Translations under genes and position numbers: made by a program | Assembly (NCBI GenBank): GCA_030016635.1 | Contig: JASEJQ010000025.1 | Location: forward strand, 1-33,714 | Direction of reading: 5' to 3' | Length of the DNA: 33,714 nt | Source of the DNA: Thermoanaerobacteraceae bacterium | GTDB lineage: Bacteria > Bacillota > Thermoanaerobacteria > Thermoanaerobacterales > UBA4877 | Shown: positions 4,885 through 33,714 of the stretch, piece after piece | How positions within the stretch are numbered: position 1 is the first letter of the stretch | Layout of the letters: each line of letters opens with the position of its first letter | Notes under the pieces: generated by a model | What the model was told of the DNA's origin: nothing | The model's input: only the letters and a program-made list of their open reading frames with translations | Database searches by the model: none

Positions 4885-4888
4885 AAAG

Positions 4889-5837: not shown

Positions 5838-5852
5838 TTGACCACCTCTTAG

Positions 5853-5905
5853 ATATTTAGAAAAACATCTAAATATATTATGTGAAACTATATTAAAAAA
5901 GTAAA
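5853..5905 (-). promoter_or_regulatory. sdpR-like promoter and palindromic operator
   Basis: On the minus strand, TTTACT (5905-5900) and CATAAT (5882-5877) are 17 bp apart. Directly downstream, a perfect inverted repeat ATATTTAGA / TCTAAATAT (arms 5853-5861 and 5868-5876, 6-nt gap) covers the expected transcription start, a position suited to repression by the ArsR protein encoded next. Confidence 0.65.
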
Positions 5906-5946
5906 TAGGTAATTGTTTGTAAACGTTTTTTAATTATATATAATAC

Positions 5947-5975
5947 TTGATAATTTATTCATAAAGTTTTATGAT
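5947..5975 (+). promoter_or_regulatory. Promoter of the aminotransferase-serA operon
   Basis: TTGATA at 5947-5952 and TATGAT at 5970-5975 have ideal 17-bp spacing. A second TATAAT lies at 5980-5985 without a good -35 partner. Confidence 0.55.
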
Positions 5976-6002
5976 AATGTATAATAGCAGGGAGGTATGA
6001 AG

Positions 6003-7142
6003 ATGGGGGAGAAGATACTTTTGACACCCGGTCCTACGATGTTGCCGGATAGAGTAAGGAGGGCTATGGAAAGCCAGCCTGCGTTTCACCGTTCAGATGA
6101 GTTTTATAAGATATTTTCAGGATTTAATGAGAATTTAAAGAGGATATTTAAAACCAACCAGCCTGTTATGACCCTTACATCATCGGGTACAGGAGGATTG
6201 GAAGCTCTGGTTTCCAATGTATTTTCACGAGGGGATAAGGCCCTTGGGATCACAGTTGGAGAATTTGGAGATAGGTTTATTGAGATAGCTAAGTCATACG
6301 GGGTAGAAGTGGATGAATTGAGGTATGAATGGGGGACGGCGGCCAGGCCTGATGATATTGAGGGAAAGTTGAGAAGTAATAGTTATAAGGCCATACTGAT
6401 TACACATAATGAGACCTCAACGGGTGTGGTGAATGATATTAAAACCATTGCAGAGATATGCCATAGATATAATGCGCTTATACTAGTCGATGCTGTAAGC
6501 TCACTGGGTGGGCTGGAACTGGATATGGATGGCTGGGGGCTGGATGGGGTAGTAACCTGTTCGCAGAAATGCCTTATGGGCCCACCCGGCCTGGCCTTTG
6601 TAGCTCTATCTGATAGGGCATGGGAAGCAACAAAAAAGTCTGACCTGCCACACTTTTATTTTGACCTGAATAAGGCCAAAAAAGGAGTTGAAAAAATAAA
6701 TCCTGATACACCATACACACCCGCTGTAAGCACTATCATGGCTGTTTCCGAAGGATTGAATATGCTGGATGAAAGGTTGGATGTGGTATATAACAGGCAA
6801 ATGATAATAGGAAATGCAGTAAGAAAGGCCGTTGACACCCTTGGCCTAAGGATTTTTGCCCGGGAAAATTATTCTGACTGCATTACAGGTATTTACCTTC
6901 CTGATGGCATCTCATCTAAAGATATAATTGGCTATATGTACAAAGAAGGGGTTGTGATAGCCTCAGGTCAGGGCAGATATAAAGAAAATGTAATAAGGCT
7001 GGGTCATATGGGCTACTGTACAAAAAGGATGCTTATCAAATGTTTTGATGCTTTAGAGGATGCTCTTACTGCCTTGGGATTCAAACTGGAGGCTGGTTTA
7101 TCTATAGAAACTCTGGATAAGGAATTGGGGGAGTTAAATTGA
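6003..7142 (+). CDS. Class V PLP-dependent aminotransferase (serine/alanine-glyoxylate type)
   Basis: I place the start at ATG 6003 because GGGAGG (5990-5995) is 7 nt upstream; ATG 5997 is too close. The 379-residue protein is full length for the family. The N-terminus LLTPGPTMLPDRV is characteristic. Aspartate 163 in LVDAVSS would bind the PLP ring nitrogen, and lysine 189 in CSQKCLMGPPG would form the Schiff base. The C-terminus has RLGHMGYC. Family members use serine, alanine, pyruvate or glyoxylate. serA follows with a 4-nt overlap, as in Thermotoga, so a role with 3-phosphohydroxypyruvate or hydroxypyruvate in serine metabolism is likely; the substrate is inferred. Confidence 0.87.
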   Translation: MGEKILLTPGPTMLPDRVRRAMESQPAFHRSDEFYKIFSGFNENLKRIFKTNQPVMTLTSSGTGGLEALVSNVFSRGDKALGITVGEFGDRFIEIAKSYGVEVDELRYEWGTAARPDDIEGKLRSNSYKAILITHNETSTGVVNDIKTIAEICHRYNALILVDAVSSLGGLELDMDGWGLDGVVTCSQKCLMGPPGLAFVALSDRAWEATKKSDLPHFYFDLNKAKKGVEKINPDTPYTPAVSTIMAVSEGLNMLDERLDVVYNRQMIIGNAVRKAVDTLGLRIFARENYSDCITGIYLPDGISSKDIIGYMYKEGVVIASGQGRYKENVIRLGHMGYCTKRMLIKCFDALEDALTALGFKLEAGLSIETLDKELGELN

Positions 7143-13710: not shown

Positions 13711-14475
13711 ATGAGTAAGATAAGGGTAGAAATAAACCTTACCAGTGATAATGAGTTGGTGTTGCCTTTAAACTACAATCATATTCTGCAGGCCTTTATA
13801 TACAATAATATAACTGACAAGGCATATGCGAAATTTCTACACGATAGGGGCTATGAAGCCGATAGAAAGTTTTTTAAGCTCTTTACCTTTGGGAGATTGG
13901 AAGGGAGGTTTAAGCTTTTCCCGGGTAAAATAATGATAGCCCCACCGCTCAAGCTTATTGTGTCCTCTGCTGTGGATGACTTCATCAATGATTTCTGTGA
14001 GACACTCCTTAAAAGGGATGAGCAAAGACTTTTAGATCAGAGGGTGAGTGTCGAATCCATTAACGTTTTCAACAAAAGGATTGCCGATAATGAGCTTACG
14101 ATAAAAATGCTCTCTCCTCTTGTAATGTACAGCACTATTGATTTTAATAATAGAAAAATTACATACTATTATTCACCATGGGATAAGGAGATATCCGTCT
14201 TACTAAGAGAAAATCTTGCAAAAAAATATATTGCCATAAATGGATCTCCACCAAAGGATAAGGAGTTTGGCATCAGCACAATTGGACCCAAGGACAGCAA
14301 GTATCAAAAGATAATAAATTATGAAGGGACGGTGGTAAAGGGCTGGATGGGAATTTATAAAATAAAAGGGGACCCAGAGCTGCTTAAAGTGGCATACGAC
14401 TGCGGTCTTGGCAGTAAAAGTTCTATGGGTTTTGGATGCTATGAAATATTGGAGGGTGGTGAGAAGGGTGCTTGA
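13711..14475 (+). CDS. cas6: CRISPR endoribonuclease Cas6
   Basis: The 254-residue protein has the Cas6 layout: a first strand (KIRVEINL), the motif YNHILQAFIYNNI with a candidate catalytic histidine at H24, and a C-terminal glycine-rich loop GLGSKSSMGFGCYEIL that binds the repeat RNA. Cas6 cuts within each repeat, leaving an 8-nt 5' handle on the crRNA, here expected to be AUUGAAAC. It is the first gene of the operon. GGGG directly touches the ATG, an unusually short ribosome-site spacing, but no better start exists. Its end overlaps cas8b by 8 nt. Confidence 0.92.
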   Translation: MSKIRVEINLTSDNELVLPLNYNHILQAFIYNNITDKAYAKFLHDRGYEADRKFFKLFTFGRLEGRFKLFPGKIMIAPPLKLIVSSAVDDFINDFCETLLKRDEQRLLDQRVSVESINVFNKRIADNELTIKMLSPLVMYSTIDFNNRKITYYYSPWDKEISVLLRENLAKKYIAINGSPPKDKEFGISTIGPKDSKYQKIINYEGTVVKGWMGIYKIKGDPELLKVAYDCGLGSKSSMGFGCYEILEGGEKGA

Positions 14476-16435
14476 GGCGATAAAGAATTTGGGCGGCCTG
14501 GCTATGGAAGAAAACCCCGATGACTTTTTAAGTTCTCTGACCTTAGATATACCAAAAGAGAGAGGTGGTAAAAAGCAGCATCTTGTAATGATATATTTTG
14601 ATACCAAAAAAGAGTCTGTTTCAGTAGATCTAAAAGAAATAGATGACAGGACAGCATCTGATTATCTCTGGATAGGCAATGCAGACGGTGCTATGAGTCC
14701 GCAGTGGTATTTTACAACCACCAATGTTGATTATCTGTTGTCCCAGACTATACCCAACTATATTGACCTTCTTGAAGACGGTAACAGCAAAGAGAGGTTT
14801 GCTGACATCTTAAGTAAATTTTACATGGATCTGGGAGAACAAAAGGGCAGTCAAAAAAGATACAGGTACGTATTCAATGTGGAGAAGTTCGGCTTAGTCG
14901 GGGATGGTTGGATTGAAGCTACATACCAGTCTCTTGACAATGATGCCAAAAAGATGGTACAGGAAGTAAAAAAGGTGTTTTTAGAATGGGTGAAAAAACA
15001 AATTCATCTTACAGATAAGGAGATATCCCTGTATACACTCATAGTTGATGGTAATCCGTTGGTCTCTGTTCCTGTATATAAAAACCTGGTGGCTAAGAAA
15101 AAGGTTGACGAAATATTTGAGGAAGCCGACGAGGGTATATGCTCCATATGCGGTGAGGAAAGGCCAGTAACAGATGATACAACGAAATTTACACTCAAAT
15201 ATTATATGACAGACAAAATTGGTTTTTCCTCAGGTATTTCCGGCGATTTTATTAGAAACTTCCCCATATGCAAAGACTGTTATACAAAAATGCTGGTTGG
15301 AGAAGCTTACATGAAGAACAACATGGGCTCACGCATTGGCGGATTAAACCTGTATATTGTCCCGGATATCCTTTTTAAACCCGACACGGGACTTTTCAAT
15401 ATGGACAGATGGGCCGGTTATATAAAAAACAGCTTTAATTCAGTTGTATCTAAAGAAGGACTGGAGAAGTTCGAAAATGAGCTCAAGGAATATATGGACT
15501 TTGAGAATTCAAAAAATAACTATATCTTAAACCTGCTCTTTTATGAGAAAAACCAGGCTGAGTTTAAAATATTAAAGCTCATCAAGGACGTGCCTCCATC
15601 GAGGCTTGATATTATTAAAAATAGTTTTAGAGAAGCTAAGGCCGGTATGGATGGCATACTGGGAGAAAGCCCAGCATGGAATATAGACCTGGGCAAGATA
15701 TATTACCTCATCCCATTAAAGAGTACACAAAAGTCAATAGAGTACAAGAAACTGCTGGATTTCTACGACGAGATATTCTCTGGTAAAAGGGTATCCTACA
15801 ACTTTATGATAGATCAGGCCGTGGAATTATGCCAGGTCTACTATTTCAATGAATTTGGCCAGTATAATGTAAAGATTGGCAGTAACACAGAATGGGACAT
15901 GGCACTTTCATATGTAATGCTCCAGGAAAATATACTGATGAAAGCCCTTAAAATACTGGGGATACTGGATAAAGGAGGTAAAGAAATGGACTATGCTTCA
16001 TTAAGCGTAGAAAAAGATTACACGGAATATTTAAAGGAAATGAGGTATGATGAATCTAAAGCAGCTCTCTTCCTATTCGGCAGCCTGATAGCAGATATTG
16101 CCACAGCACAATGGAAGGATGGCAAGGATAATAAACCTATTCTAAACAAACTGAACTATCAGGGCATGAGCTGGAGTAAAATACAGAGGCTCACAGGTGA
16201 GGTAGTAGAGAAGCTCAGACAGTATAAAGTACTCAACAAGTATAATGAGTTAAAGCTTTCAGAATGCATGAGGCTTTTTGACTTGAGCCGAGCCATGAAC
16301 AATGGCAGGTGGCCGTTAAATGATAGGGAAAATATATATTATATACTCTCCGGCTACGGTTTTACAACGGCCAGAATGGTGAAATATGGAAGAAAAGATG
16401 AAAATAGTAAAAAGGAGGAAGATGAAAATGAATAA
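14468..16435 (+). CDS. cas8b: Type I-B Cascade large subunit Cas8b (TM1802/Csh1-like)
   Basis: I choose GTG 14468, which gives MLEAIKNLG, like other family N-termini, with GGAGGG at 14451-14456; longer open extensions lack support. The protein is then 655 residues. Two CxxC pairs, C225/C228 (CSICGEE) and C268/C271 (CKDC), form the expected zinc finger of the CXXC-CXXC Cas8b subgroup. The rest is poorly conserved, as usual for large subunits. Cas8b recognises the PAM and recruits Cas3. Position after cas6 and before cas7, with 8-nt overlaps on both sides, supports the call. Confidence 0.87.
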   Translation: MLEAIKNLGGLAMEENPDDFLSSLTLDIPKERGGKKQHLVMIYFDTKKESVSVDLKEIDDRTASDYLWIGNADGAMSPQWYFTTTNVDYLLSQTIPNYIDLLEDGNSKERFADILSKFYMDLGEQKGSQKRYRYVFNVEKFGLVGDGWIEATYQSLDNDAKKMVQEVKKVFLEWVKKQIHLTDKEISLYTLIVDGNPLVSVPVYKNLVAKKKVDEIFEEADEGICSICGEERPVTDDTTKFTLKYYMTDKIGFSSGISGDFIRNFPICKDCYTKMLVGEAYMKNNMGSRIGGLNLYIVPDILFKPDTGLFNMDRWAGYIKNSFNSVVSKEGLEKFENELKEYMDFENSKNNYILNLLFYEKNQAEFKILKLIKDVPPSRLDIIKNSFREAKAGMDGILGESPAWNIDLGKIYYLIPLKSTQKSIEYKKLLDFYDEIFSGKRVSYNFMIDQAVELCQVYYFNEFGQYNVKIGSNTEWDMALSYVMLQENILMKALKILGILDKGGKEMDYASLSVEKDYTEYLKEMRYDESKAALFLFGSLIADIATAQWKDGKDNKPILNKLNYQGMSWSKIQRLTGEVVEKLRQYKVLNKYNELKLSECMRLFDLSRAMNNGRWPLNDRENIYYILSGYGFTTARMVKYGRKDENSKKEEDENE

Positions 16436-17348
16436 CAGTGAACTATTATTTATCTATGACGCAAAGATGTGCAATCCCAATGGTGACCCCGATGAGGAAA
16501 ACAGGCCAAGAATGGACTATGACAGGCAGAGGAACTTGGTTAGCGATGTGAGGCTAAAAAGGTATATAAGGGACTACCTTATGGAAAATGGCTATGATAT
16601 ATACGTGGCACGGGTGGACGACAGGGCTGTTACTGCTGGGGATAGGCTAAAGGAGTTACTTGGGCATGAGGCTACCAGCGATGATATAGGTGAAATACTA
16701 TCACGGCTGATTGATATAAGGCTCTTTGGGGCAACTATGCCAATAAAAGGTGAAAAGAGGGGAGCAGGTACATCCTTGTCACTTACCGGGCCAGTGCAGT
16801 TTAACTGGGGTCATTCTCTAAACAAGGTTGATCTTGTAGAGAGTAACGGAATAACCTCTCACTTTGGGTCTGCTGCTGAAAACAAGCAAGGGGCAATGGG
16901 CAAGGACTATAGGGTTTACTACTCTCTCATAGCATTTCATGGCATCATCAGCGGTAAAAGGGCATCAGAGACAAATCTTTCTGAGGAGGATGTAGAGATT
17001 CTGGATAAGGCGCTTATAAAATCCATACCGTTGCAGGCCACCAGAAGCAAGATTGGACAGTATCCAAGGCTGTATATGAGATTGGAGTATGCATCGGATG
17101 AAGACTTTATAGGGGATTTGAGAAGCTATGTGAGTCTTGATAGGGCTGAGGCGCTGAGAGAACCCACTGACTTTGCTGTGGATTTAAGCAGGCTCAATGA
17201 GGTTTTGACAAGCAGCAACAGCAAGATTTCCAGGATACACCTGTGGTATGACCCGGAGATGAGGTTTATGGCAGATGGCAAGCAAGCACCTGTAGAGGAT
17301 CTATTAGGGGAGGAACTGAAGAGTAAGATAGATATCCTGAAATATTAA
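16428..17348 (+). CDS. cas7: Cascade backbone Cas7 (Csh2/Cst2-type, I-B)
   Basis: ATG 16428 is favoured over upstream starts because AGGAGG (16413-16418) is 9 nt away; it overlaps the cas8b stop by 8 nt. The 306-residue protein opens with ELLFIYDAKMCNPNGDPD and RPRMDYDRQRNLVSDVRLKRY, the strongly conserved Cas7 N-terminus. A central segment (RLFGATMPIKG, SLTGPVQFNWGHS) corresponds to the finger region. Multiple copies polymerise along the crRNA in Cascade. It was formerly thought to be a repressor (DevR) in related systems. No defects are seen. Confidence 0.94.
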   Translation: MNNSELLFIYDAKMCNPNGDPDEENRPRMDYDRQRNLVSDVRLKRYIRDYLMENGYDIYVARVDDRAVTAGDRLKELLGHEATSDDIGEILSRLIDIRLFGATMPIKGEKRGAGTSLSLTGPVQFNWGHSLNKVDLVESNGITSHFGSAAENKQGAMGKDYRVYYSLIAFHGIISGKRASETNLSEEDVEILDKALIKSIPLQATRSKIGQYPRLYMRLEYASDEDFIGDLRSYVSLDRAEALREPTDFAVDLSRLNEVLTSSNSKISRIHLWYDPEMRFMADGKQAPVEDLLGEELKSKIDILKY

Positions 17349-17361
17349 AGAGGGATTAAAT

Positions 17362-18135
17362 ATGGAGATAAATAAACTTTTAATTTTTGACATATATGGG
17401 AAGATGGCACACTTTAGAAAATATTATACAAATTCCTCCTCCCTCTCTTACATGTTTCCACCGAGGACGGTTATTACCGGGTTAATAGCTGCTGTACTTG
17501 GCATAGAAAGGGATACCTACTATGAGGAGTTTTCTGCTGATAAATGCCATGTAGCAGTATCTGTAAGGACCCCCTTAAGGAAGATAATGCAGACTGTAAA
17601 CTACCTGCAGACTAAAGACATGAATGGGCTTAATGGCAGTAAGGGTCATACCCAGATACCTCTTGAGATAATACTTCCCGAAGAGGATATGATAGTGTAT
17701 CGGGTATACTTTGCCCATGAGGACGAAGCCATCATGGAGGAGTTGAGCAGGCACCTTAAAAGCGGCAGGGTATATTACCCTATATACCTTGGTATATCAG
17801 AATTCTTGGCTGCATCCAAATATATACAGCAAATAGACAAAAACGAAATAGACATGCTTCGATCTGGTCAGCAATATCAGGTAAGCACAGTGTGCAACTG
17901 CAGCATAATAAAGGACAGAGGGCTTATCTTTTCTGACAGCCATGGTATGACCCTGCAGTATATAAAGGAGAAGATGCCGCTGGAGTTCGACAAAGACAGG
18001 AGGATAAAATCCACTGCCAGCTTTATCTATGAGAAGAACTCAAAGTCAATCACCGGCATATTTGATGTACCTGCATACAGGATAAATTATGATGGCCTTG
18101 AGGAGAACATCGTATTTATGGAGGGAGACCAATGA
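17362..18135 (+). CDS. cas5: Cascade subunit Cas5 (Cas5b/Cas5h)
   Basis: The 257-residue protein begins LLIFDIYGKMAHFRKYYTN and continues SYMFPPRTVITGLIAAVLG, the classical Cas5 N-terminal signature, a RAMP fold. Cas5 caps the crRNA 5' handle and contacts Cas8b. It lies 13 nt after cas7 with its own ribosome site (AGAGGGA) and ends in an ATGA overlap with cas3. In type I-B Cas6 does the processing, so Cas5 is structural. Confidence 0.93.
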   Translation: MEINKLLIFDIYGKMAHFRKYYTNSSSLSYMFPPRTVITGLIAAVLGIERDTYYEEFSADKCHVAVSVRTPLRKIMQTVNYLQTKDMNGLNGSKGHTQIPLEIILPEEDMIVYRVYFAHEDEAIMEELSRHLKSGRVYYPIYLGISEFLAASKYIQQIDKNEIDMLRSGQQYQVSTVCNCSIIKDRGLIFSDSHGMTLQYIKEKMPLEFDKDRRIKSTASFIYEKNSKSITGIFDVPAYRINYDGLEENIVFMEGDQ

Positions 18136-20585
18136 ATTTTTTCTCACATGTGGAAAGAGGTGAACATGGGGACATAATAAGCAAAAGAGAACTAAAGGAA
18201 CATCTGACTGATGTTGCCAACTCAATGTGTGAAAAAATACTTAATTCACCTGTAAAAGAGAAAGAAAAGCTATCACATATAGGCCATATGGTAGGATTAT
18301 GCCATGACTTTGGCAAGTTCACCACCTATTTTCAGGATTACCTTTTAAATAATGCAAAATCAGGGCAGAAAAAGAACCATGGGTTCATCTCTGCCCTTTT
18401 TTCCTCATATCAGGTGAAGCGGCTTTTTAAAGGAGATGAATACCTCCCTCTCTTTGTGTACTTTATGGTGCTGCATCATCATGGAGACCTCAAAAACCTG
18501 GATATGGATTTGCCCCGTGCTGATGACGCAAAAGACAGGATAGATATTGTTAAGATGCAGATAGAGGATATATCTAAGCATTTAGATGATATAAAGTCCA
18601 TATACAGTGAAATGGATAAATCCATAGAAATAGATTGTTTTATAAAAGATTGGGAGGAATTCTATAAAGGTTTAAACAGGATAAAATTTAAATATTTAAA
18701 CAGCAGAGATATAAAGGATGAAATACGTGTAAGAAATTCCATAAACATGCTCTTTGTCTACTCCACATTGATTGACTCGGACAAGAAGGACGCAGGGAGG
18801 GTTAAGCCCGTCTCAAGGATGTCTATACCCGGCTCAATTGTGGATGGCTACAGGCAGGTCAAATTTTCAGATAAGAGTAATGACCCCATGACTGCAATGA
18901 GAAATGAGATATATAACTCTGTCATCAACAATATTAAAGACCTGGATTTGAGCAAACACATTTTAACCATAACCGCCCCCACAGGATCTGGTAAGACTAT
19001 AGCAGGGTTTTCTGCAGCTGTTAAACTAAGGGAAAGGTTATCAAGGGACGGATATCTGTCCAGGATTATCTATGCCCTGCCTTTTACCAGTATCATTGAT
19101 CAGAACTATAAAATAATACATGAGATCTTAAAAAGCGGTATAGCTGATTATGAGGACAATGAGAGTCTTTATCTGGTCAAGCATCACCACCTTGCAGATG
19201 TGAAATATATGGAAGATAAAGACGAAAGACCTGTGGATGAGGCACTTGCCCTGATCGAGGCATGGGAATCAGAGGTGGTGGTGACAACCTTCATACAATT
19301 TTTTTACACCCTTATAGGGTATAGAAATAGAATGCTAAAAAAGTACCACAACATTGCAGGTTCCATTGTCATCCTGGACGAGGTTCAAAACATACCTATG
19401 GAATACTGGGATGATATAGGGAAAATTTTAAAGTATGCTTCCGAATTGCTGGATATATATATTATACTTATGACAGCCACCAGACCTTTATTATTTGTTG
19501 GAGGAGAATATGAGGAACTGGTTGATGAGCCTGATAAATACTTTAAGGATGAGAGTTTAAATAGGGTATGCCTATATCCGCGGATTGAAGAAATGGATCT
19601 CGATTTATTTACAGATGATGTGGTTAAAAATTATGACCCGGATAAGTCATATTTGATTGTGATGAATACTGTAGGGAGCTCTCTTGAGGTATTTGAAAAG
19701 CTTAAGGAAAAGATTGCACTTGAGAAAGGTGAAAATCTGCCGAAGTTTATATATCTATCAGCCAACATAGTACCATATCAGCGGAGAAAGAGGATTGAAG
19801 AAATAAAAGACAAACTCAAGACTGGCAAGAGGTTATTTATCGTCTCCACACAGGTGGTAGAGGCTGGAGTTGATATTGACCTGGATGTGGTTATAAGGGA
19901 TATAGGACCCTTTGACTCCATCATGCAGGTCGCAGGACGATGCAACCGTGAAAATAAAGGCAGTAAGGGCGAGGTATACGTTTATAATTTGATAAGAGAG
20001 AGCGGCAGGCATTATTATGAAAGGGTATATAAAAAAGTACACTGCCTGACAAGTAAAGAGATATTGGAAAATAAAGACAGCATTGATGAAAAGCACTTTA
20101 TTGACATTATAAATGACTACTTTGTAAAGGCTACGGAGAGGAGTGCCAGCACCAATGATGCACTAGTAAAGGCAATGGGAGAAATGAAGTTTGATGATCG
20201 AGAAAGGGGAAGTGATGACATCGAATATATTTCAGATTTTAAGCTAATAGATGAGCTTCCGAATTATGCAGATGTCTTCATTGAGACCAATGACGATGTG
20301 GAAATAACCATTGATGGCATGACAAAAACCGTGAAACCCTCAGATATCTGGGAATATTATAAAAGAAATGTTGTCAATATGAAAGATATAAAGATGAAAA
20401 GGGAGAACAATTTAAAGATAAAGAAGTACTTCAGGGAATTTGTCATATCCATTAATGCCGGATTTTTACCCGAAGGATTTGAAGAGTGGCCAGGCCTTTA
20501 TAGAATACCGAATCACGCACTGGATGAATATTACGATGAAATTGTAGGTTTTAAGAGGGTAAGGGACGAAAGCATCTTTGCCTGA
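18132..20585 (+). CDS. cas3: CRISPR nuclease-helicase Cas3 (HD fused to DExD helicase)
   Basis: The 817-residue protein carries both halves. The HD nuclease includes H6, the HD pair H58-D59 (LCHDFGK) and HHH at 115-117. The helicase has Walker A TAPTGSGKT (281-289), the DExD motif ILDEVQ (D416, E417), motif III TATRP, and motif VI QVAGRCNR (599-606). Cas3 is recruited by Cascade after R-loop formation and degrades target DNA from the displaced strand. It overlaps cas5 by 4 nt. Every catalytic motif I looked for is present, so the system should be able to interfere. Confidence 0.95.
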   Translation: MNFFSHVERGEHGDIISKRELKEHLTDVANSMCEKILNSPVKEKEKLSHIGHMVGLCHDFGKFTTYFQDYLLNNAKSGQKKNHGFISALFSSYQVKRLFKGDEYLPLFVYFMVLHHHGDLKNLDMDLPRADDAKDRIDIVKMQIEDISKHLDDIKSIYSEMDKSIEIDCFIKDWEEFYKGLNRIKFKYLNSRDIKDEIRVRNSINMLFVYSTLIDSDKKDAGRVKPVSRMSIPGSIVDGYRQVKFSDKSNDPMTAMRNEIYNSVINNIKDLDLSKHILTITAPTGSGKTIAGFSAAVKLRERLSRDGYLSRIIYALPFTSIIDQNYKIIHEILKSGIADYEDNESLYLVKHHHLADVKYMEDKDERPVDEALALIEAWESEVVVTTFIQFFYTLIGYRNRMLKKYHNIAGSIVILDEVQNIPMEYWDDIGKILKYASELLDIYIILMTATRPLLFVGGEYEELVDEPDKYFKDESLNRVCLYPRIEEMDLDLFTDDVVKNYDPDKSYLIVMNTVGSSLEVFEKLKEKIALEKGENLPKFIYLSANIVPYQRRKRIEEIKDKLKTGKRLFIVSTQVVEAGVDIDLDVVIRDIGPFDSIMQVAGRCNRENKGSKGEVYVYNLIRESGRHYYERVYKKVHCLTSKEILENKDSIDEKHFIDIINDYFVKATERSASTNDALVKAMGEMKFDDRERGSDDIEYISDFKLIDELPNYADVFIETNDDVEITIDGMTKTVKPSDIWEYYKRNVVNMKDIKMKRENNLKIKKYFREFVISINAGFLPEGFEEWPGLYRIPNHALDEYYDEIVGFKRVRDESIFA

Positions 20586-20598
20586 AGGAGGTATACCT

Positions 20599-21102
20599 AT
20601 GGATGAGGAAGCCAGGGTAAATGGAACCCTCATATGGTATTACAATGTATGCAAAAGAGAGGCTTGGCTTATGAGCCATAGTATAACACCTGACGAGAGC
20701 GACAGCAATGTGGAAATTGGGCGGTTTATCCATGAGAAAAGTTATAAGAGGGAAATGAAAGAAGTCTCTACAGGCAATATGAAAATTGATATATTCCGCA
20801 AGGAGCACGGACAAATTGTAATTGGAGAACTAAAGAAAAGTTCGAAATTTAAGAATATAGCTATATGGCAACTAAAGTATTACATGTATGAACTGGAAAA
20901 AGAAGGTGTGAAGGCTACGGGTGAACTTTTATTTCCAGAAGAAAAAAGAAAGGAATCGGTATCTCTCACTGATGAGGACAGAATAAACCTAAACAACCAG
21001 ATTAGAGAAATAATAAAGCTCATATATCAAAGCGAACCACCAGAGCCTATTAAAATTGCTTTCTGCAAAAACTGTGCCTATGCAGAATTCTGTTGGGCTT
21101 GA
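20599..21102 (+). CDS. cas4: CRISPR adaptation exonuclease Cas4
   Basis: ATG 20599 with AAGGAGGT at 20585-20592 is chosen over an upstream TTG. The 167-residue protein has the four cluster cysteines C18, C156, C159 and C165 (CKNCAYAEFC at the end), expected to hold a [4Fe-4S] cluster. The RecB-like nuclease core shows H near IGRFIHEKSY, then GELKKSS and the QxxxY motif QLKYYMY. Cas4 trims prespacers and helps choose PAM-flanked ones. It lies 13 nt after cas3 and 14 nt before cas1. Confidence 0.94.
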   Translation: MDEEARVNGTLIWYYNVCKREAWLMSHSITPDESDSNVEIGRFIHEKSYKREMKEVSTGNMKIDIFRKEHGQIVIGELKKSSKFKNIAIWQLKYYMYELEKEGVKATGELLFPEEKRKESVSLTDEDRINLNNQIREIIKLIYQSEPPEPIKIAFCKNCAYAEFCWA

Positions 21103-21116
21103 AAGAGGTGCTGCGA

Positions 21117-22112
21117 TTGAAACGAAGTTTTTATATAATGAGTGATGGGGAAATAAAAAGAAAGGACAACACGTTTGTTTTTGAAAACGATTCAGGGAAA
21201 AAGTATATACCTATAGAAGAACTCAATGATATCTATGCATTTGGCGAACTGACACTTAACAAGAGATTTTTGGAATATGCCAGCCAAAAAGAAGTACCTA
21301 TTCATTTCTTTAATTACTATGGTTATTATATAGGCAGTTTTTATCCTAGGGAACACTTGAATTCAGGGTATATGATTTTAAAACAGGCCGAACATTATTT
21401 AGATAGTACTAAGAGGTTGTTTTTGGCCAGGCAGTTTGTAGTAGGCTCTACCCAGAATATACTGCATGTATTGAAATATTATATAAATCGTGACAAGGAG
21501 ATGCTCAATGATACTTATTATGCCATTAATGAATTGATAGGAAGACTTGAAGAATGCGCTGATGTAAGTCAGCTCATGGCCATAGAGGGAAATATACGCG
21601 ACCTTTATTATAAAGCATTCGACTTAATATTGGAAAACCCTGATTTTTTATTTGAAAAGAGGACAAGGAGACCCCCGCAAAACTATATCAATACCATGAT
21701 TAGTTTTGGCAATTCCATTATTTACACCATTATATTAAGCGAAATATATAAAACACACCTTGACCCTCGTATTGGTTATCTTCACTCTACAAACTTCAGG
21801 CGATTTACCTTAAATCTTGATGTATCTGAAATTTTCAAACCCATAATTGTAGACAGGATGATACTCACGCTCATAGGTAAAAAAATGATTACAAAAAGTG
21901 ATTTTGATAAAGACGCAAATGGGATTATAATGAAAGACAAGGGGAAACAATTAATACTTCAAGAAATTGACAAAAGAATGGGTGTGACTATAAGGCACAG
22001 AGAACTTGGAAGAGAAGTATCCTACCGGACAATAGTCAGGATGGAACTATATAAGCTGGAAAAACACCTTATGGGAGAAAAAGAATTTAAACCGTTTCAA
22101 GCAAAATGGTAA
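21117..22112 (+). CDS. cas1: CRISPR integrase Cas1
   Basis: I choose TTG 21117, which gives MKRSFYIMSDGEIKRKDN, the usual I-B Cas1 beginning, with GAGGTG at 21105-21110; an upstream in-frame TTG at 21093 would overlap cas4 and has no clear site. The 331-residue protein keeps the metal-binding trio: E157 in IEGNIRDLYY, H223 in YLHSTNFRR and acidic D235/E238 in LDVSEIFKPIIVDR. With Cas2 it integrates new spacers at the leader-repeat junction. No frameshift seen. Confidence 0.95.
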   Translation: MKRSFYIMSDGEIKRKDNTFVFENDSGKKYIPIEELNDIYAFGELTLNKRFLEYASQKEVPIHFFNYYGYYIGSFYPREHLNSGYMILKQAEHYLDSTKRLFLARQFVVGSTQNILHVLKYYINRDKEMLNDTYYAINELIGRLEECADVSQLMAIEGNIRDLYYKAFDLILENPDFLFEKRTRRPPQNYINTMISFGNSIIYTIILSEIYKTHLDPRIGYLHSTNFRRFTLNLDVSEIFKPIIVDRMILTLIGKKMITKSDFDKDANGIIMKDKGKQLILQEIDKRMGVTIRHRELGREVSYRTIVRMELYKLEKHLMGEKEFKPFQAKW

Positions 22113-22196
22113 TTCAAGATAGGTTAAAACCAGGTTCTGGATTATAATATTTGTCTAAATCCATTATTTCAAAATGGTGATTTTAGGAGCACAACG

Positions 22197-22460
22197 ATGT
22201 TTGTGATTTTAGTCTATGATGTCAATGAAAAAAGAGTTGCCAAAGCCTTAAAGACATGCAGAAAATATCTTTATTGGGTCCAGAACTCGGTTTTTGAAGG
22301 GGAACTATCTGAGGCAAACTACAAAAAACTCAAATTCGAATTGGAAAAGATAATCAATAAAGAGGAAGACTCTGTAATATTTTATACATTCAGGAGCATG
22401 AGATATTCTGAAAGAGAATCAATGGGTCTTAAAAAGGGTGGGGATGTTAATTTCTTATAA
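22197..22460 (+). CDS. cas2: CRISPR adaptation protein Cas2
   Basis: The 87-residue protein begins MFVILVYDVNEKRV, with the conserved aspartate D8, and contains RKYLYWVQNSVFEGELSEA, typical of Cas2, a ferredoxin-fold dimer that bridges two Cas1 dimers. TTAGGAG lies upstream of ATG 22197. It is separated from cas1 by 84 nt, the largest gap in the operon, which contains TATAAT at 22143-22148 without a convincing -35, so an internal promoter is possible but unproven. The array leader follows directly. Confidence 0.95.
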   Translation: MFVILVYDVNEKRVAKALKTCRKYLYWVQNSVFEGELSEANYKKLKFELEKIINKEEDSVIFYTFRSMRYSERESMGLKKGGDVNFL

Positions 22461-22629
22461 AAGTCGTCGATGTGCAGTGCTGTAAAAATACCTGGACATC
22501 GACGACCCTACGCTATAGTCTCTTTTCTTTCTATTTCAACTATTCATGGCATTAAATAATATAACGACATGTGCTTTAAAGTAAAATGTGCTATAATAAA
22601 AATATCAAGTTTTATGCGTATTTTGATTG
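22461..22629 (+). promoter_or_regulatory. CRISPR leader with promoter and 11-bp stem-loop
   Basis: The leader lies between cas2 and the first repeat. At its start, arms GTCGTCGATGT (22463-22473) and ACATCGACGAC (22496-22506) form a perfect 11-bp stem around a 22-nt loop. A pyrimidine-rich and then AT-rich stretch follows. The likely array promoter is the extended -10 TGCTATAAT with TATAAT at 22592-22597, giving a start near 22604, about 26 nt before repeat 1. GACATG lies at 22566-22571. The repeat orientation (ending ATTGAAAC) makes this the leader end. Confidence 0.8.
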
Positions 22630-23940
22630 GTTTTTAGCCTACCTCCAAGGAATTGAAACGAGGAGGTTTGAAAATGGCAACAAGTGGAGTTGATTTGTTT
22701 TTAGCCTACCTCCAAGGAATTGAAACACTTCCAAGTTGAGTACCTACTATGGGCAACCTGCGTTTTTAGCCTACCTCCAAGGAATTGAAACTGTTTAAAT
22801 CGGCAAGAGCAGAGCTAACAGTGGCAGCGTTTTTAGCCTACCTCCAAGGAATTGAAACTCTGTTGGAGATGAAACTGCTGGTGGGTATTTGGTAGTTTTT
22901 AGCCTACCTCCAAGGAATTGAAACCCTTTATAAGGGATGACGGCACAAGTAATAAACCTAGTTTTTAGCCTACCTCCAAGGAATTGAAACACACGACAAG
23001 CAAAGATTCAGAAGGTTGGGAAGAGAAGTTTTTAGCCTACCTCCAAGGAATTGAAACCCGGCATCTTCAAGTGAGAGGCGGCTATCTTCCCAGTTTTTAG
23101 CCTACCTCCAAGGAATTGAAACGCATCACCTGTAACTAAAACCTCCACAAATACTATGAGTTTTTAGCCTACCTCCAAGGAATTGAAACTTCAGAGTATC
23201 GTAAATATGGATATAAAAAAATACAGTTTTTAGCCTACCTCCAAGGAATTGAAACTCGATACATCCGTGCCGGCAATCCGGGAGAGGTCCAGTTTTTAGC
23301 CTACCTCCAAGGAATTGAAACACTGCATAACTCTCTGGAGGTTGGCCTGCTCCACGCGTTTTTAGCCTACCTCCAAGGAATTGAAACTTCCTTGGAATAG
23401 GTCGCTGGTGAGTGCCCCAATTGGTTTTTAGCCTACCTCCAAGGAATTGAAACCATCCTGAATAAGTGCGGCCCAGTCATCTTTTTCTTGGTTTTTAGCC
23501 TACCTCCAAGGAATTGAAACCTACTATGGCTGGGGCTATGGCAGGGGGCGCAACCGTTTTTAGCCTACCTCCAAGGAATTGAAACCCGCCAACCAACCAC
23601 GCTTCGAGCCTGGCAAGTTCGTTTTTAGCCTACCTCCAAGGAATTGAAACGCGAAGGGGTTTCAAAAGAAACAGAAGAAGTTGTAGGTTTTTAGCCTACC
23701 TCCAAGGAATTGAAACCAGAAAACCGGTCAAAAAATGAGCAGCGCCGGCCAAGTTTTTAGCCTACCTCCAAGGAATTGAAACTCGGGCACCTGGTTCACC
23801 TCCCTCGAACCGCTTTTTCGTTTTTAGCCTACCTCCAAGGAATTGAAACTAAGCAGACTTCCACCCATCCGCCACACCATTCGTCCGTTTTTAGCCTACC
23901 TCCAAGGAATTGAAACTTTCCCAAGCTTCTTTTGGCAAAA

Positions 23941-23959
23941 GGCCCAAGGGGCCGTTTTT
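23941..23959 (+). terminator. Third terminator-like spacer-repeat junction
   Basis: GGCCC (23941-23945) and GGGCC (23949-23953) pair around AAG, preceded by AAAA and followed by the repeat's GTTTTT. The stem is short but entirely G-C. Confidence 0.3.
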
Positions 23960-26183
23960 AGCCTACCTCCAAGGAATTGAAACTGTGATTGGACTTGTCC
24001 ACTGTCCTGTAGCGATTAAGTTTTTAGCCTACCTCCAAGGAATTGAAACCAATCGTAGAGTATTTGCTCAAGGACGGGAAAATCTGTTTTTAGCCTACCT
24101 CCAAGGAATTGAAACACATCCACAAAGGTAGAAATAACTGCGCCTGCTGAATGTTTTTAGCCTACCTCCAAGGAATTGAAACCTCTACCGGTGGCTGTTC
24201 TTGTTCTTGTGCCTGCGTTTGTTTTTAGCCTACCTCCAAGGAATTGAAACAGTGGCCAGGCCGTCTATCTCTGCAGTGGTCCTAAGTTTTTAGCCTACCT
24301 CCAAGGAATTGAAACCTGATGAAATAAATTCGGGAAAAATTCGTACTGCGCTGTTTTTAGCCTACCTCCAAGGAATTGAAACCTGGTATTTGCGGATTCC
24401 ACCAAAACTCCACCGTCCGTTTTTAGCCTACCTCCAAGGAATTGAAACAAAGCCTGGGTTAATGCTTCACTGATTTTATTCGGTTTTTAGCCTACCTCCA
24501 AGGAATTGAAACCCTACAAATCCGACGGCACGCAGGTTGCCGCCAACCAGTTTTTAGCCTACCTCCAAGGAATTGAAACCTGCCTCTGTATACCAAATGA
24601 ATTTAAAAAGGCCGCTGTTTTTAGCCTACCTCCAAGGAATTGAAACGCTACCGCATCAGCTCCGGGGTTGGTGTTTGCGGTCCGTTTTTAGCCTACCTCC
24701 AAGGAATTGAAACTTTGGCATTGTACCGGTCCTTTTAAGCCCGCCTTGAGTTTTTAGCCTACCTCCAAGGAATTGAAACTTGGCTGTATATAAATGACCA
24801 ACACTACCAGCTGTAGTTTTTAGCCTACCTCCAAGGAATTGAAACGCATGCTGCCCTTGAACAGGTCCATGCCGACCGTTCCGTTTTTAGCCTACCTCCA
24901 AGGAATTGAAACGAGAATGACACGGACAAATATCGTTATCAATCAGCGGTTTTTAGCCTACCTCCAAGGAATTGAAACTCTAATATCCTGCTTATCTGCG
25001 CAACCCTTATGCTTAAGTTTTTAGCCTACCTCCAAGGAATTGAAACCGAGATTGTTAACCGGCACAATGAGAAACTCATTAATGTTTTTAGCCTACCTCC
25101 AAGGAATTGAAACTTTGAATTGTTCCATAGATTGTAACGTTATAGGTGTGTTTTTAGCCTACCTCCAAGGAATTGAAACCCGCTAAAAATTCCTCAGGCC
25201 ATACAGGACATACGCGTTTTTAGCCTACCTCCAAGGAATTGAAACTGAACCAAGAACAATACATTTCTTCATATAGGTGTAAGTTTTTAGCCTACCTCCA
25301 AGGAATTGAAACGAATTAGTGGCAATTGATAGTAATATTCCAGCTTTTGTTTTTAGCCTACCTCCAAGGAATTGAAACCTAATTCTTTCGCTATGCTTTG
25401 CAATTTGTACTTCCGTTTTTAGCCTACCTCCAAGGAATTGAAACCACAATAAAACCAATCCTAGCAAAAAACGGGTTAGGTTTTTAGCCTACCTCCAAGG
25501 AATTGAAACAATGAAGAACCCACATTAAGAATGCCTGATTTATAGTTTTTAGCCTACCTCCAAGGAATTGAAACAACACACAGAATACTGCTAACGCTGA
25601 GCAGAATACGTTTTTAGCCTACCTCCAAGGAATTGAAACCAGGCAACTTGTCAAATATAACTGCTATGCCAAAAGTTTTTAGCCTACCTCCAAGGAATTG
25701 AAACCCATGATAACGGCAAGGTATTCCTAAAAAACACATAGGTTTTTAGCCTACCTCCAAGGAATTGAAACTAGGCAGAACATTTATGAATTTAGGCTCG
25801 ACATTATCGTTTTTAGCCTACCTCCAAGGAATTGAAACCACAATTTATAGTGAATTTTAAAAGTGAAGTTAACTCGTTTTTAGCCTACCTCCAAGGAATT
25901 GAAACGAAGATACTTTGAACATTGCCAATTCTCCTTTCTTTATGTTTTTAGCCTACCTCCAAGGAATTGAAACGCGATACGGTATATGTAAGAGATACGG
26001 ACCTAAATCTGGTTTTTAGCCTACCTCCAAGGAATTGAAACCTGCTTTCCCCGACGAAAAAAGCCGTCGGTGGCTTCTGTTTTTAGCCTACCTCCAAGGA
26101 ATTGAAACTAAACAACTATAGTGCCCTCATCGACGACCTCCGCAGTTTTTAGCCTACCTCCAAGGAATTGAAACTAAAAAAGT

Positions 26184-26216
26184 AAGGTCAAGGGCGTTGC
26201 CTTGACCTTTGTTTTT
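26184..26216 (+). terminator. Terminator-like spacer hairpin running into a repeat
   Basis: Within the spacer 26175-26210, arms AAGGTCAAGG (26184-26193) and CCTTGACCTT (26200-26209) form a perfect 10-bp stem with a 6-nt loop. The next bases are T, then the repeat's GTTTTT. An A-tract before the stem would give the reverse strand a T-run too. The spacer was probably taken from a phage terminator; in the array it may stop the pre-crRNA transcript. Confidence 0.5.
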
Positions 26217-26593
26217 AGCCTACCTCCAAGGAATTGAAACCCGCTCCGCTTGCCGCCGCCGGAGCCGGTCTCGTCGCGTTTTTAGCCTACCTCCAAGGAA
26301 TTGAAACTAAGGCTTCTAGGCCATCAAAAGAGTACAATACTAAAGTTTTTAGCCTACCTCCAAGGAATTGAAACTTTTACCATCCTCGATATAAGCATTC
26401 CTGAAGCGCGTTTTTAGCCTACCTCCAAGGAATTGAAACCGACAGCAGCAAAGCAGGAAGACAAAAAACAGATGCTGTTTTTAGCCTACCTCCAAGGAAT
26501 TGAAACTGAAGATGCTTGGCTGGATGATTGGCAACCGGGTTGTTTTTAGCCTACCTCCAAGGAATTGAAACTAAACCTCGACGCCTTTCCTTC

Positions 26594-26615
26594 CCTGAAG
26601 GTCCTTCAGGTTTTT
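26594..26615 (+). terminator. Second terminator-like spacer-repeat junction
   Basis: CCTGAA (26594-26599) pairs with TTCAGG (26605-26610), where the last G is the first base of the repeat, and TTTTT of the repeat follows at once. The stem is 6 bp with a 5-nt loop, or 7 bp with a 3-nt loop. Confidence 0.35.
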
Positions 26616-29600
26616 AGCCTACCTCCAAGGAATTGAAACGATTTTCTATTGCAATTCTTTCTACAGGCAAATTCAGTTTTTAGCCTACCTCCAAGGAATT
26701 GAAACTCATCTTCACTAGAAATACCGAGGATTGCAGCCAGTGAGTTTTTAGCCTACCTCCAAGGAATTGAAACAGCGGCACGGATGGGGTATAGACAGGC
26801 TATGGAGACGTTTTTAGCCTACCTCCAAGGAATTGAAACTTCATTTCCCGATAAGCGGCCGGGAGATCATCCGGGAGGTTTTTAGCCTACCTCCAAGGAA
26901 TTGAAACTGTGAGCAAGTCATCAATGGCACTCGATACTTGCTTAGTTTTTAGCCTACCTCCAAGGAATTGAAACTCATTTTATACCTCCTTTTTTGCTGC
27001 GGTATTTTCGGTTTTTAGCCTACCTCCAAGGAATTGAAACTCAGGGCGGAAGCAAGAAAACAGGTGCAATGACTAAGGTTTTTAGCCTACCTCCAAGGAA
27101 TTGAAACTAGTGCCTTATGCTTGGTTCAACAGTACAACACATGTTTTTAGCCTACCTCCAAGGAATTGAAACTGATAATAGAAAAAATCATTTCTTCAAC
27201 TTCTTCTGGGTTTTTAGCCTACCTCCAAGGAATTGAAACAGACATAGAATCACTTTTCAAAGACTAGTTGAGACTAGTTTTTAGCCTACCTCCAAGGAAT
27301 TGAAACATGTAGAGCAGGTCCTTTCTGGCCTGAATAAAGCTGTGGGTTTTTAGCCTACCTCCAAGGAATTGAAACTTATTCGTCCCATTCATCATCGTCG
27401 CCTTCTTCCTCGGTTTTTAGCCTACCTCCAAGGAATTGAAACAATTTTAAGTCTTTAGTATCCTTGCAAGATTTTACCGTTTTTAGCCTACCTCCAAGGA
27501 ATTGAAACTAGCTTATATACTTCCGACAGATGCAGCAGACTACGTTTTTAGCCTACCTCCAAGGAATTGAAACCTGCTACCTTCATCCTTCCTCATCCTC
27601 GCTTTCCTTGTTTTTAGCCTACCTCCAAGGAATTGAAACCGTATAAATTCCTCTTGGAAACTCAAACCCGGCACTGTTTTTAGCCTACCTCCAAGGAATT
27701 GAAACGATAGTAATACACAGCAATGGATTGAACAAACTATAGGTTTTTAGCCTACCTCCAAGGAATTGAAACCGCAGCAAGTAGTGTATACAATCGAACA
27801 AACTATGATGTTTTTAGCCTACCTCCAAGGAATTGAAACATTCGTTCTTTGATTGATTCCACTAATATCTTTTTGTTTTTAGCCTACCTCCAAGGAATTG
27901 AAACCAAACGAGGCTGATGCCTGCCCTTATACAGATGCCGGTTTTTAGCCTACCTCCAAGGAATTGAAACTTTATGGCTTCCTGCACTTCCTGGGAGAGC
28001 TGCTCCGTTTTTAGCCTACCTCCAAGGAATTGAAACAAAGATAGCGGAAGCCCTTGATTGCTCTATAGAAAGTTTTTAGCCTACCTCCAAGGAATTGAAA
28101 CATATTAGAAATGAATATGACAGCGACAGAACAATAGTTTTTAGCCTACCTCCAAGGAATTGAAACACTCCAGGGGTAAAGGGTCGCCCAGGAAAGAATA
28201 TATGTTTTTAGCCTACCTCCAAGGAATTGAAACCCTGCGGTATTTCCAGAACTTACTAAGAATGACATCGTTTTTAGCCTACCTCCAAGGAATTGAAACC
28301 AATTCCTGCTCCGCAGTAAGGTTGGCGAGGTCCCAGTTTTTAGCCTACCTCCAAGGAATTGAAACTCCTCTATATCTGCGTGCTTCCATCGTGCGTTCTC
28401 CGTTTTTAGCCTACCTCCAAGGAATTGAAACTGGAGCCCCAAAAGGGAGGAATATACAAAACCACAAAGTTTTTAGCCTACCTCCAAGGAATTGAAACCC
28501 AAAATAAGGCAATTATTATTGATAATATTATGGCAGTTTTTAGCCTACCTCCAAGGAATTGAAACGCAGTTTCGACGCCAGCTATGTGGAGGGCGACGGT
28601 CGGTTTTTAGCCTACCTCCAAGGAATTGAAACAGGCGTATCGGCTACGCCTCTATTCCGCTATATGACGTTTTTAGCCTACCTCCAAGGAATTGAAACTT
28701 CTAATCATTTTTTTCCTCCTTTTCGCTGTGGTATTTGTTTTTAGCCTACCTCCAAGGAATTGAAACACAAAGCAGCAGAAGATACAGAAGATTCCCCAGA
28801 AAAGTTTTTAGCCTACCTCCAAGGAATTGAAACTGCAACAAAATACAGCGATGCAAAGGTCGTAGCCGAGGTTTTTAGCCTACCTCCAAGGAATTGAAAC
28901 GTATATGATAAAGAGGTATCCTGTTCTAATATAGCTTGGTTTTTAGCCTACCTCCAAGGAATTGAAACACGGCCCGGACATACAAAGGGCAGCAAAAGTG
29001 CTGGGTTTTTAGCCTACCTCCAAGGAATTGAAACCAGCTAATACTCCTCGCTATGAAACAGGCAAATTCGGTTTTTAGCCTACCTCCAAGGAATTGAAAC
29101 ATTTTGCCATCTATATATTCTACAGACATACCCAAAGTTTTTAGCCTACCTCCAAGGAATTGAAACCTATCTGAGGTTTTCAGGTGGCAGTGAGGCTGTA
29201 GCAGTTTTTAGCCTACCTCCAAGGAATTGAAACTATCATTAATGAGATAGTTATCTATGACAATCCCGAGTTTTTAGCCTACCTCCAAGGAATTGAAACG
29301 TGCTACTTCTTGGACACAGGTCTCCATAACAGGTGGTTTTTAGCCTACCTCCAAGGAATTGAAACTGAAGGTGATGACTTACACGGAAAGCGGAGATTTT
29401 GGGTTTTTAGCCTACCTCCAAGGAATTGAAACTGAAGAGGCGTAGCCGATACGCCTCATTTTAGTCTAGTTTTTAGCCTACCTCCAAGGAATTGAAACTA
29501 TCACATCGGTTTCCTGTAGGTCTTCAAGACTTTCGTTTTTAGCCTACCTCCAAGGAATTGAAACCCATTTCTTTCATTTTTTATCCTCCTTTATTTATTT

Positions 29601-32600
29601 ATGTTTTTAGCCTACCTCCAAGGAATTGAAACGCCATCGTACTTACCTTCCTCCTCTTGTGCAACGTTGTTTTTAGCCTACCTCCAAGGAATTGAAACTG
29701 TTAAGCGGGGGAACAGGCGAGAACGGTACGTTCGGTTTTTAGCCTACCTCCAAGGAATTGAAACCCTTCCTGCATGGTCGCAGTGGCCTTTGCGGCATGG
29801 GTTTTTAGCCTACCTCCAAGGAATTGAAACAACGGATATACATTTCCAAATTCCTCACTTTCCTCTTGGTTTTTAGCCTACCTCCAAGGAATTGAAACTG
29901 AGGTAGAAAAGGAAACAGAGAAGGCTATACTGGTTCGTTTTTAGCCTACCTCCAAGGAATTGAAACCACTGTTATAAATTACTTCTATATCATCATAAGC
30001 TACGTTTTTAGCCTACCTCCAAGGAATTGAAACAAGAAACGGGGCGGAAATATGCTTCAGGAACTACTATGTTTTTAGCCTACCTCCAAGGAATTGAAAC
30101 CCTTGTCTGTTGTGAGTTCTCGCTTTTCGTATAAGTCGTTTTTAGCCTACCTCCAAGGAATTGAAACAATTCACTATAGATTTGATAAAACTAATTAATT
30201 CGGTTTTTAGCCTACCTCCAAGGAATTGAAACTTCAATGAAATTTTTATTCTCTTTTTGTCCCCATGTTTTTAGCCTACCTCCAAGGAATTGAAACCTTT
30301 TCATGAGGCACTTGCAGATGCGATATTGCATGGTTTTTAGCCTACCTCCAAGGAATTGAAACACGGGTTTTCTAAGGCAATATATATGACTAAAGAAGAG
30401 TTTTTAGCCTACCTCCAAGGAATTGAAACACGAATACAGCAGTAAAACGGGATGAAAATGACAATATGTTTTTAGCCTACCTCCAAGGAATTGAAACTCT
30501 TTCCTAACCATAAACGCAAAACTCATTTTGTCTAGTTTTTAGCCTACCTCCAAGGAATTGAAACAAGAATGGCAATCAAAACAAAACGGCAGCCTGCAAA
30601 GGTTTTTAGCCTACCTCCAAGGAATTGAAACAATAATGTAAGTGCTGATGCAGATAAATCGGAAGGCGTTTTTAGCCTACCTCCAAGGAATTGAAACCCT
30701 TGTAATGTCTGTTTCTCATCTTCGTCAAGTCTTGTTTTTAGCCTACCTCCAAGGAATTGAAACAATTTTTTTTGAATATAATACATACCTTCTTCATTAA
30801 GTTTTTAGCCTACCTCCAAGGAATTGAAACATAGAAGATGCAGAACACTTTGAGCAACGTTGGAATGTTTTTAGCCTACCTCCAAGGAATTGAAACTGTT
30901 TCTAATTTGCCGTCCAATTTCTAAATACCTCCGTTTTTAGCCTACCTCCAAGGAATTGAAACATAAAAAATGAGGAGGAATGAAAAATGAGTGCGCAGTT
31001 TTTAGCCTACCTCCAAGGAATTGAAACCTTCTTCATCACCTAGTAATTTACGCAAAGCAGCTAGTTTTTAGCCTACCTCCAAGGAATTGAAACGTACTAT
31101 CCTGCCGTTAGAATCATATGTTAAATCAAAGTTTTTAGCCTACCTCCAAGGAATTGAAACCGAACATATATCCTATACCGCCCGAATTGTAAGCAAAGTT
31201 TTTAGCCTACCTCCAAGGAATTGAAACTGCAGGATGAGGATGTAGATGGATATTCAGAAAGCAGTTTTTAGCCTACCTCCAAGGAATTGAAACCTCCAGT
31301 AGAAGATACTGTATTTGTAAAGTAATGTAAGTTTTTAGCCTACCTCCAAGGAATTGAAACCAGATAAGGACTTAATAATGTCGCCATCGGTAATTGGTTT
31401 TTAGCCTACCTCCAAGGAATTTAAACATATTTCATCTTCTGTTTTTGGTTTTACTTCGGCCTGCGTTTTTAGCCTACCTCCAAGGAATTGAAACACCATA
31501 TTTTCTGGTGTATAAGCCCTATAACCAGCACGTTTTTAGCCTACCTCCAAGGAATTTAAACGCACCCAGCGGCATAGATTTGATTTGTGTTCCCGCCGTT
31601 TTTAGCCTACCTCCAAGGAATTGAAACAGAATCATGCGTGAAAAGTATGACTGGAATGTAGACGTTTTTAGCCTACCTCCAAGGAATTGAAACTACTTCA
31701 TTTTTCCTCCTTTTTGGCTGTGGTATTTGCGTTTTTAGCCTACCTCCAAGGAATTGAAACATGCCAAATCTGCAATAGTGAGCCTGATACATGTTCTGTT
31801 TTTAGCCTACCTCCAAGGAATTGAAACTAGTGATGGTGAATACGGCCACGCCCTGAGAATTTGTGTTTTTAGCCTACCTCCAAGGAATTGAAACCTCTCT
31901 CTCTTGTTCTATGGCTTCTTTCCGATGCTTTGTTTTTAGCCTACCTCCAAGGAATTGAAACTATTTCCGGATTCTGTGGTAAATACATAACCGCTCTCTG
32001 CTTTTAGCCTACCTCCAAGGAATTGAAACGTAGAGAAAAACGATTAAAAAAGTGCCTGCAAAAGGCGTTTTTAGCCTACCTCCAAGGAATTGAAACGAAG
32101 CCTTTTCCCAATCAGAAGCCGAATAACTCTGTCCGTTTTTAGCCTACCTCCAAGGAATTGAAACAAAGTAAAGATTCTCAAAAGTATTTCTGGTATTAGA
32201 TAGTTTTTAGCCTACCTCCAAGGAATTGAAACAGGAGTTAAAACGCAGGGGGGACACAAATATAATTAGTTTTTAGCCTACCTCCAAGGAATTGAAACCA
32301 AATTTCTCATGCGAATTTTAGTTCGCATAAACGGAGGTTTTTAGCCTACCTCCAAGGAATTGAAACGCCAGGCTCAGAATCCGATATAGAGCGGGCATAA
32401 AAGTTTTTAGCCTACCTCCAAGGAATTGAAACAAGCTCGAGAGACGGGTTCAACTCCCGTGTGCGTCGGTTTTTAGCCTACCTCCAAGGAATTGAAACCC
32501 GAAAGTGCAAGCAAAAATCAAGTTGAGAGAGGCAGGTTTTTAGCCTACCTCCAAGGAATTGAAACAATCTCGGCTCGCCAGCACTTTTGGGCTTCCATTG

Positions 32601-33714
32601 TACGTTTTTAGCCTACCTCCAAGGAATTGAAACATCGCTGTCTGCTATCATTTTCCATGTACAATCCACGTTTTTAGCCTACCTCCAAGGAATTGAAACA
32701 TAATTTCTTGCGGTGTCATCGTGTTCAACCTCGCTGTTTTTAGCCTACCTCCAAGGAATTGAAACTTGAAATTGGTGAACATTTTGTTTTTGTCAGAACG
32801 TTTTTAGCCTACCTCCAAGGAATTGAAACCAAATAAACTGATACTTTCAAATCCTGCTGATGCTGGTTTTTAGCCTACCTCCAAGGAATTGAAACAAAGC
32901 AACATTAGCAGGAAACTACATAGAAGTTAGAGGTTTTTAGCCTACCTCCAAGGAATTGAAACAAGAGAAGTGGACCAAGAAGAGAGGTAGTGCTCAGGGT
33001 TTTTAGCCTACCTCCAAGGAATTGAAACTGAATGGCATAAAGTATTTGCCGTACCAGCCAAGGTTTTTAGCCTACCTCCAAGGAATTGAAACGATTCTAA
33101 TTTTGCACTCCTCATGGAAATGGGTACGTTTTTAGCCTACCTCCAAGGAATTGAAACTCTTTTTTTTGATTTCTTTAGCCCGGCAAGGGGGAAAGTTTTT
33201 AGCCTACCTCCAAGGAATTGAAACATCCCTACAGATACAAGCTATGCAAAAGACCTAAAAGTTTTTAGCCTACCTCCAAGGAATTGAAACGCAGTTTCGA
33301 CGCCAGCTATGTGGAGGGCGACGGCCGTTTTTAGCCTACCTCCAAGGAATTGAAACCCGCACTTTGGACAGACTGTCTTAAGCATTTTGCTCAGTTTTTA
33401 GCCTACCTCCAAGGAATTGAAACCGCAGAAATAATATCAGACGAAGAAGCATTGCAACAGGTTTTTAGCCTACCTCCAAGGAATTGAAACTAAGCCTTCT
33501 CGCTATTTTTAATAATTTTTTCAACTGTTTTTAGCCTACCTCCAAGGAATTGAAACAAATCGAATAAACTCAACAGGCCCGGGGCTAAAATCCGTTTTTA
33601 GCCTACCTCCAAGGAATTGAAACCCGAGACAGCGACTGGCAGAAAGAGATAGTGCAGAGAGTTTTTAGCCTACCTCCAAGGAATTGAAACGCAGTTTCGA
33701 CGCCAGCTATGTGG

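Follow-up and report, generated by a model that had tools for sequence, protein, structure and literature searches.

The window analysed here is one complete contig (C32), 33,714 nt long; the draft genome to which it belongs totals 2.35 Mb in 114 contigs. It carries a type I-B CRISPR-Cas locus, whose features are collected in Table 1. The contig end interrupts the array, which holds at least 166 complete spacers, most of them 35-38 nt long, and the adaptation genes cas1, cas2 and cas4 are all present in the system beside it. The array repeat matches the Rfam family CRISPR-DR2 and terminates at its 3′ side in ATTGAAAC, which forms the 5′ handle of the crRNA (PMC8482600). Three variant repeats (31397, 31532 and 32000) are found at the leader-distal side. 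We take the plus strand as the crRNA strand, with the leader first, because of the likely leader position, the ATTGAAAC repeat end and the placement of these variant repeats. With its Cas6-8b-7-5-3-4-1-2 operon, its 30-nt repeat ending in ATTGAAAC and its spacers of 34-39 nt, the system does not differ in kind from known type I-B CRISPR-Cas; what sets it apart is a spacer whose target would be a tRNA gene instead of a protein gene. Genome-wide, 214 copies of the repeat occur at ≤3 mismatches, 167 in the window and 47 on other contigs, and the true spacer store is therefore larger than 166.

Table 1. Features of the type I-B locus and of the tRNA-like spacer (positions in the window)
Feature	Position	Strand	Remarks
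Type I-B cas operon	13711-22460	+	complete cas6-8b-7-5-3-4-1-2 set, upstream of the array on the same strand
cas6	13711-14475	+	
cas8b	14408-16435	+	
cas7	16386-17348	+	
cas5	17362-18135	+	
cas3	18132-20585	+	
cas4	20578-21102	+	
cas1	21093-22112	+	
cas2	22197-22460	+	
Leader (inferred)	22461-22629	+	between cas2 and the first repeat; from sequence and position
CRISPR array	22630-33690	+	167 repeats GTTTTTAGCCTACCTCCAAGGAATTGAAAC; spacers 34-39 nt; runs off the contig end
Spacer AAGCTCGAGAGACGGGTTCAACTCCCGTGTGCGTCG, 36 nt	32433-32468	+	148th from the leader; matches a tRNA gene in its 3′ half
Probable A37 A38, anticodon-stem 3′ strand GCTCG (39-43) and 4-nt variable loop AGAG	32433-32443	+	assigned by aligning the spacer to the Kikimora (tRNA-Asp) and Francesca (tRNA-Cys) genes
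T-arm, tRNA positions 49-65	32444-32460	+	only perfect T-arm among 166 spacers
3′ acceptor strand GTGCGTC (66-72; 32461-32467) and discriminator G73 (32468)	32461-32468	+	from sequence

The spacer at 32433-32468 is enclosed exactly by two perfect 30-nt repeats, in an array that adjoins cas8b, cas7, cas5, cas6 and cas3. A first-pass annotation had read the elements ACGGG, TTCAACT, CCCGT and GTGCGTC and a discriminator base in this spacer, and all of them are in place. Specifically, the stem strands ACGGG (32444-32448) and CCCGT (32456-32460) flank the loop TTCAACT (32449-32455), so that a TTCRANY loop sits on a 5-bp stem whose closing pair is G53-C61. The register of the acceptor strand was set by the ungapped 29/36 alignment with the tRNA-Asp of phage Kikimora, a tRNA retrieved for its match to the spacer. 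In this register the last base of the spacer is discriminator position 73, the exact end of the tRNA body, and the predicted 5′ partner of the acceptor strand, in the half of the gene that falls outside the spacer, is GACGCAC. For the first 11 nt, a possible alternative register with a 5-nt variable loop would shift the assignment by one position. The base preceding the T-stem is G, where a pyrimidine is usual; G occupies this place in 16 of 132 tRNAs, and these 16 include the Kikimora and Francesca tRNAs, the nearest phage relatives of the spacer. The T-arm hairpin is predicted to fold in the crRNA, with -9.3 kcal/mol when the spacer is folded by itself. Since other spacers give more stable folds, crRNA folding is no special feature of this one.

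Several statistics were used to compare the spacer with true tRNAs and with unrelated sequence. Shuffling of the 166 spacers gives an expectation of 0.01 perfect 5-bp stems enclosing TTCRANY across the array, and one is observed. The spacer was also scored with a profile that covers tRNA positions 44-73 and was derived from 107 tRNAs of the host and of phages. It obtains 17.9 bits; true tRNAs have a median of 23.1 bits, and the spacer stands at their 20th percentile. The maximum is 11.9 bits among 400,000 random 30-mers, 9.6 bits among the other 165 spacers and 9.7 bits in the window's coding part. Aligned in register with 132 tRNA 3′ ends, this spacer has a mean identity of 16.4/36, and the others have one of 8.7 ± 1.4. 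Rfam did not report the fragment as tRNA (RF00005) at E ≤ 10, the query being a 36-nt half that lacks the D-arm and the anticodon arm; this is unsurprising, because half a molecule with a single arm makes a weak query. The reading of the spacer as a tRNA-gene 3′ half is, as far as sequence comparison can tell, well supported.

When the 36-mer is compared with INPHARED, tRNA genes of large phages make up most of the best matches, among them Kikimora and Gurke tRNA-Asp, Francesca tRNA-Cys and BM15 tRNA-Asp. The best of all is the tRNA-Asp of Brevundimonas phage Kikimora, which aligns ungapped and in tRNA register (29/36) and has the same T-arm and discriminator; the tRNA-Cys of Rhodococcus phage Francesca reaches 25/36, the figures for both being selected ones, as these tRNAs were retrieved for matching the spacer. 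Bacillus phage BM15 tRNA-Asp likewise reaches 25/36. These three tRNAs have a T-arm identical to that of the spacer, ACGGGTTCAACTCCCGT, and those of Kikimora and Francesca also share its 4-nt variable loop ending in G. All three differ from the spacer in the acceptor strand and in parts of the anticodon stem, however, and none is the protospacer. The acceptor pair GACGCAC/GTGCGTC is found exactly in a tRNA-Cys on an IMG/VR phage contig fragment, L060. The same fragment carries 37 tRNA genes in approximately 6 kb (279-6505).

The first-pass annotation had made its reading depend on a tRNA with this 3′ half in the host or in phages. Formally the outcome is negative, in that the exact source gene was found neither in IMG/VR (exact and degenerate core patterns) nor in INPHARED, PLSDB or the GTDB genomes. 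The power of this search is low, and the absence of a protospacer says little: another 103 spacers of the array, compared with INPHARED in batches of 31, 41 and 31, likewise match no phage. The phages recorded in this array seem to be unsampled. Phrase searches of the literature returned no paper on natural spacers derived from tRNA genes.

The tRNA-like sequence, its statistics, the type I-B context and the absence of a match from the host were all observed directly. On these observations we favour, with a probability of roughly three in four, the reading that the spacer is an ordinary type I-B immune memory of a tRNA gene carried by a phage or a similar mobile element; a phage origin, acquisition, a PAM and interference are the inferred parts of this reading. 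Cas1-Cas2-Cas4 would have captured 36 bp of such an invader's tRNA gene, within its 3′ half, and the piece would then have been stored as a routine spacer. Given its leader-distal place and polarised acquisition, spacer 148 is probably an old acquisition. Cascade loaded with the tRNA-sense crRNA would pair with the DNA template strand and recruit Cas3, which would degrade invaders bearing the matched tRNA gene. Because the crRNA has tRNA sense, the tRNA transcript could not pair with it and the target would be DNA only. Host tRNAs would be safe, since at least 15 of 36 positions differ from the spacer.

The other readings were weighed against the same evidence. The main rival, which we consider unlikely, is that the protospacer was protein-coding or other phage DNA, in which case the T-arm would be an inverted repeat arisen by chance. 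The spacer is open in frame 2 (SSRDGFNSRVR), with a slight likeness to MIDRFNSLVRPSD encoded by a phage gene in L057, which from its motifs we take to be metallophosphoesterase-like. Identity to that gene is 27/36, but the pattern used to pick out the match had 17 positions fixed beforehand. The lack of a tRNA protospacer and of an Rfam call would also agree with a coding origin. Against it stand the profile score, which lies above those of all 400,000 random 30-mers, and the in-register tRNA identity, 5 SD over that of other spacers. The least probable reading, which can be given hardly any weight, is that the spacer guides the homing of a CRISPR-associated transposon to a tRNA gene. The likeness is that type V-K guides, whose crRNA sequence comes from tRNA genes, mostly target such genes and that I-B2 transposons use tRNA sites (PMC11406308), the latter via TnsD. 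The system described here differs in having cas3, cas1 and cas2, whereas I-B transposons of this kind lack cas1 and cas2 (PMC11406308). Furthermore, the spacer lies within a long array and has no host tRNA match, and a TniQ search of the genome was empty, although the control search was silent too.

Comparison with cellular tRNAs bears on two further readings; self-targeting and an att core had been raised in the first-pass annotation. One is that the spacer targets a tRNA of its own host and is tolerated thanks to the PAM or to mismatches. General tRNA resemblance is all that speaks for it, and we regard it as very improbable. In the host genome, the only match of the 27-nt core at ≤3 mismatches is the spacer itself, and the highest identity to any host tRNA or tmRNA is 21/36, a level that several unrelated spacers reach too. 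Judged from these comparisons, the spacer is not self-targeting, as no tRNA or tmRNA of the host corresponds to it. The host tRNA list, drawn from a draft, lacks tRNA-His and tRNA-Tyr and is possibly incomplete, yet the spacer core has no match at ≤3 mismatches in 198 related genomes either. A tmRNA reading was likewise rejected, the 3′ end of the host tmRNA agreeing at only 21/36 positions. The other reading holds that the protospacer was the attP core of an element that integrates, in a different host, at the 3′ end of a tRNA gene; or else it was a tRNA gene from a foreign chromosome that entered by mating or transformation. Mobile elements commonly integrate at tRNA genes (PMC11406308), and the spacer spans just such a 3′ part. 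An attP core should, however, equal the 3′ end of a cellular tRNA, and host tRNAs do not exceed 21/36. Beyond the 198 relatives, the 23-nt 3′ part is without a match at ≤2 mismatches in a sample of genomes of the phylum, and the exact core is missing from approximately 85,000 species genomes (GTDB). The combined pattern of T-arm, acceptor strand and G73 has 11 matches in those species genomes, none of them in a tRNA. We consider this origin improbable, a little more so than a coding one. Thus, where the first-pass annotation had offered a phage tRNA gene or an att core as the target, the closest in-register matches favour the former, and the lack of a cellular tRNA match tells against the latter.

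If the spacer is indeed a memory of a foreign tRNA gene, the position of its PAM is of some interest. Read in tRNA sense, the first spacer base falls at position 37 (or 38), and the PAM of a type I-B system directly adjoins the protospacer on the 5′ side; for this reason the PAM may coincide with the anticodon (positions 34-36, or 35-37), a proposal to which we give slightly less than even odds. A phage that escaped by changing such a PAM would alter decoding, which would make the tRNA gene an unusually constrained target. The Kikimora and Francesca alignment places the first spacer bases at 37-38 (A A), and with a five-base variable loop the PAM would fall at 35-37. An anticodon such as CCA (Trp) might fit G73 and A37 A38, but C72 is unusual in bacterial tRNA-Trp. 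The PAMs on record for type I-B systems include CCA, CCN, TCN and TTN (PMC8482600). Attempts to read the PAM from overlapping spacers of the array gave no usable flank, the overlaps being few and their targets diverged.

Were the favoured reading true, phages or other elements of this bacterium would carry tRNA genes unlike those of the host. A type I-B system could then store a tRNA-gene spacer without autoimmunity, such tRNAs being diverged from the host's own. The overlap of anticodon and PAM is a small, testable idea on the limits to phage escape; apart from it and the foreign tRNA genes, the case would be routine CRISPR biology.

Other spacers of the array also show internal relationships. 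A near-identical spacer, GCAGTTTCGACGCCAGCTATGTGGAGGGCGACGG..., occurs at 28566-28602 and at 33291-33326 in copies that differ at the 3′ end; the start of a third lies at 33691-33714, where the contig ends. These copies suggest repeated acquisition of one protospacer, or duplication, and also a likely reason for the assembly break at that point. The recurring motif GCAGTTTCGACGCCAGCTATGTGGAGGGCGACGG has no match in IMG/VR. The spacers at 26975-27010, 28699-28736 and 31694-31730 carry, on the reverse strand, AAAGGAGG followed by ATG, with shifts of a few bases, and the latter two align with each other. They seem to cover the ribosome-binding site and the start of one gene in diverged phages. 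Finally, the spacers at 28633-28668 and 29433-29468 have in common the palindromic sequence GAGGCGTATCGGCTACGCCTC, which is possibly a phage terminator hairpin.
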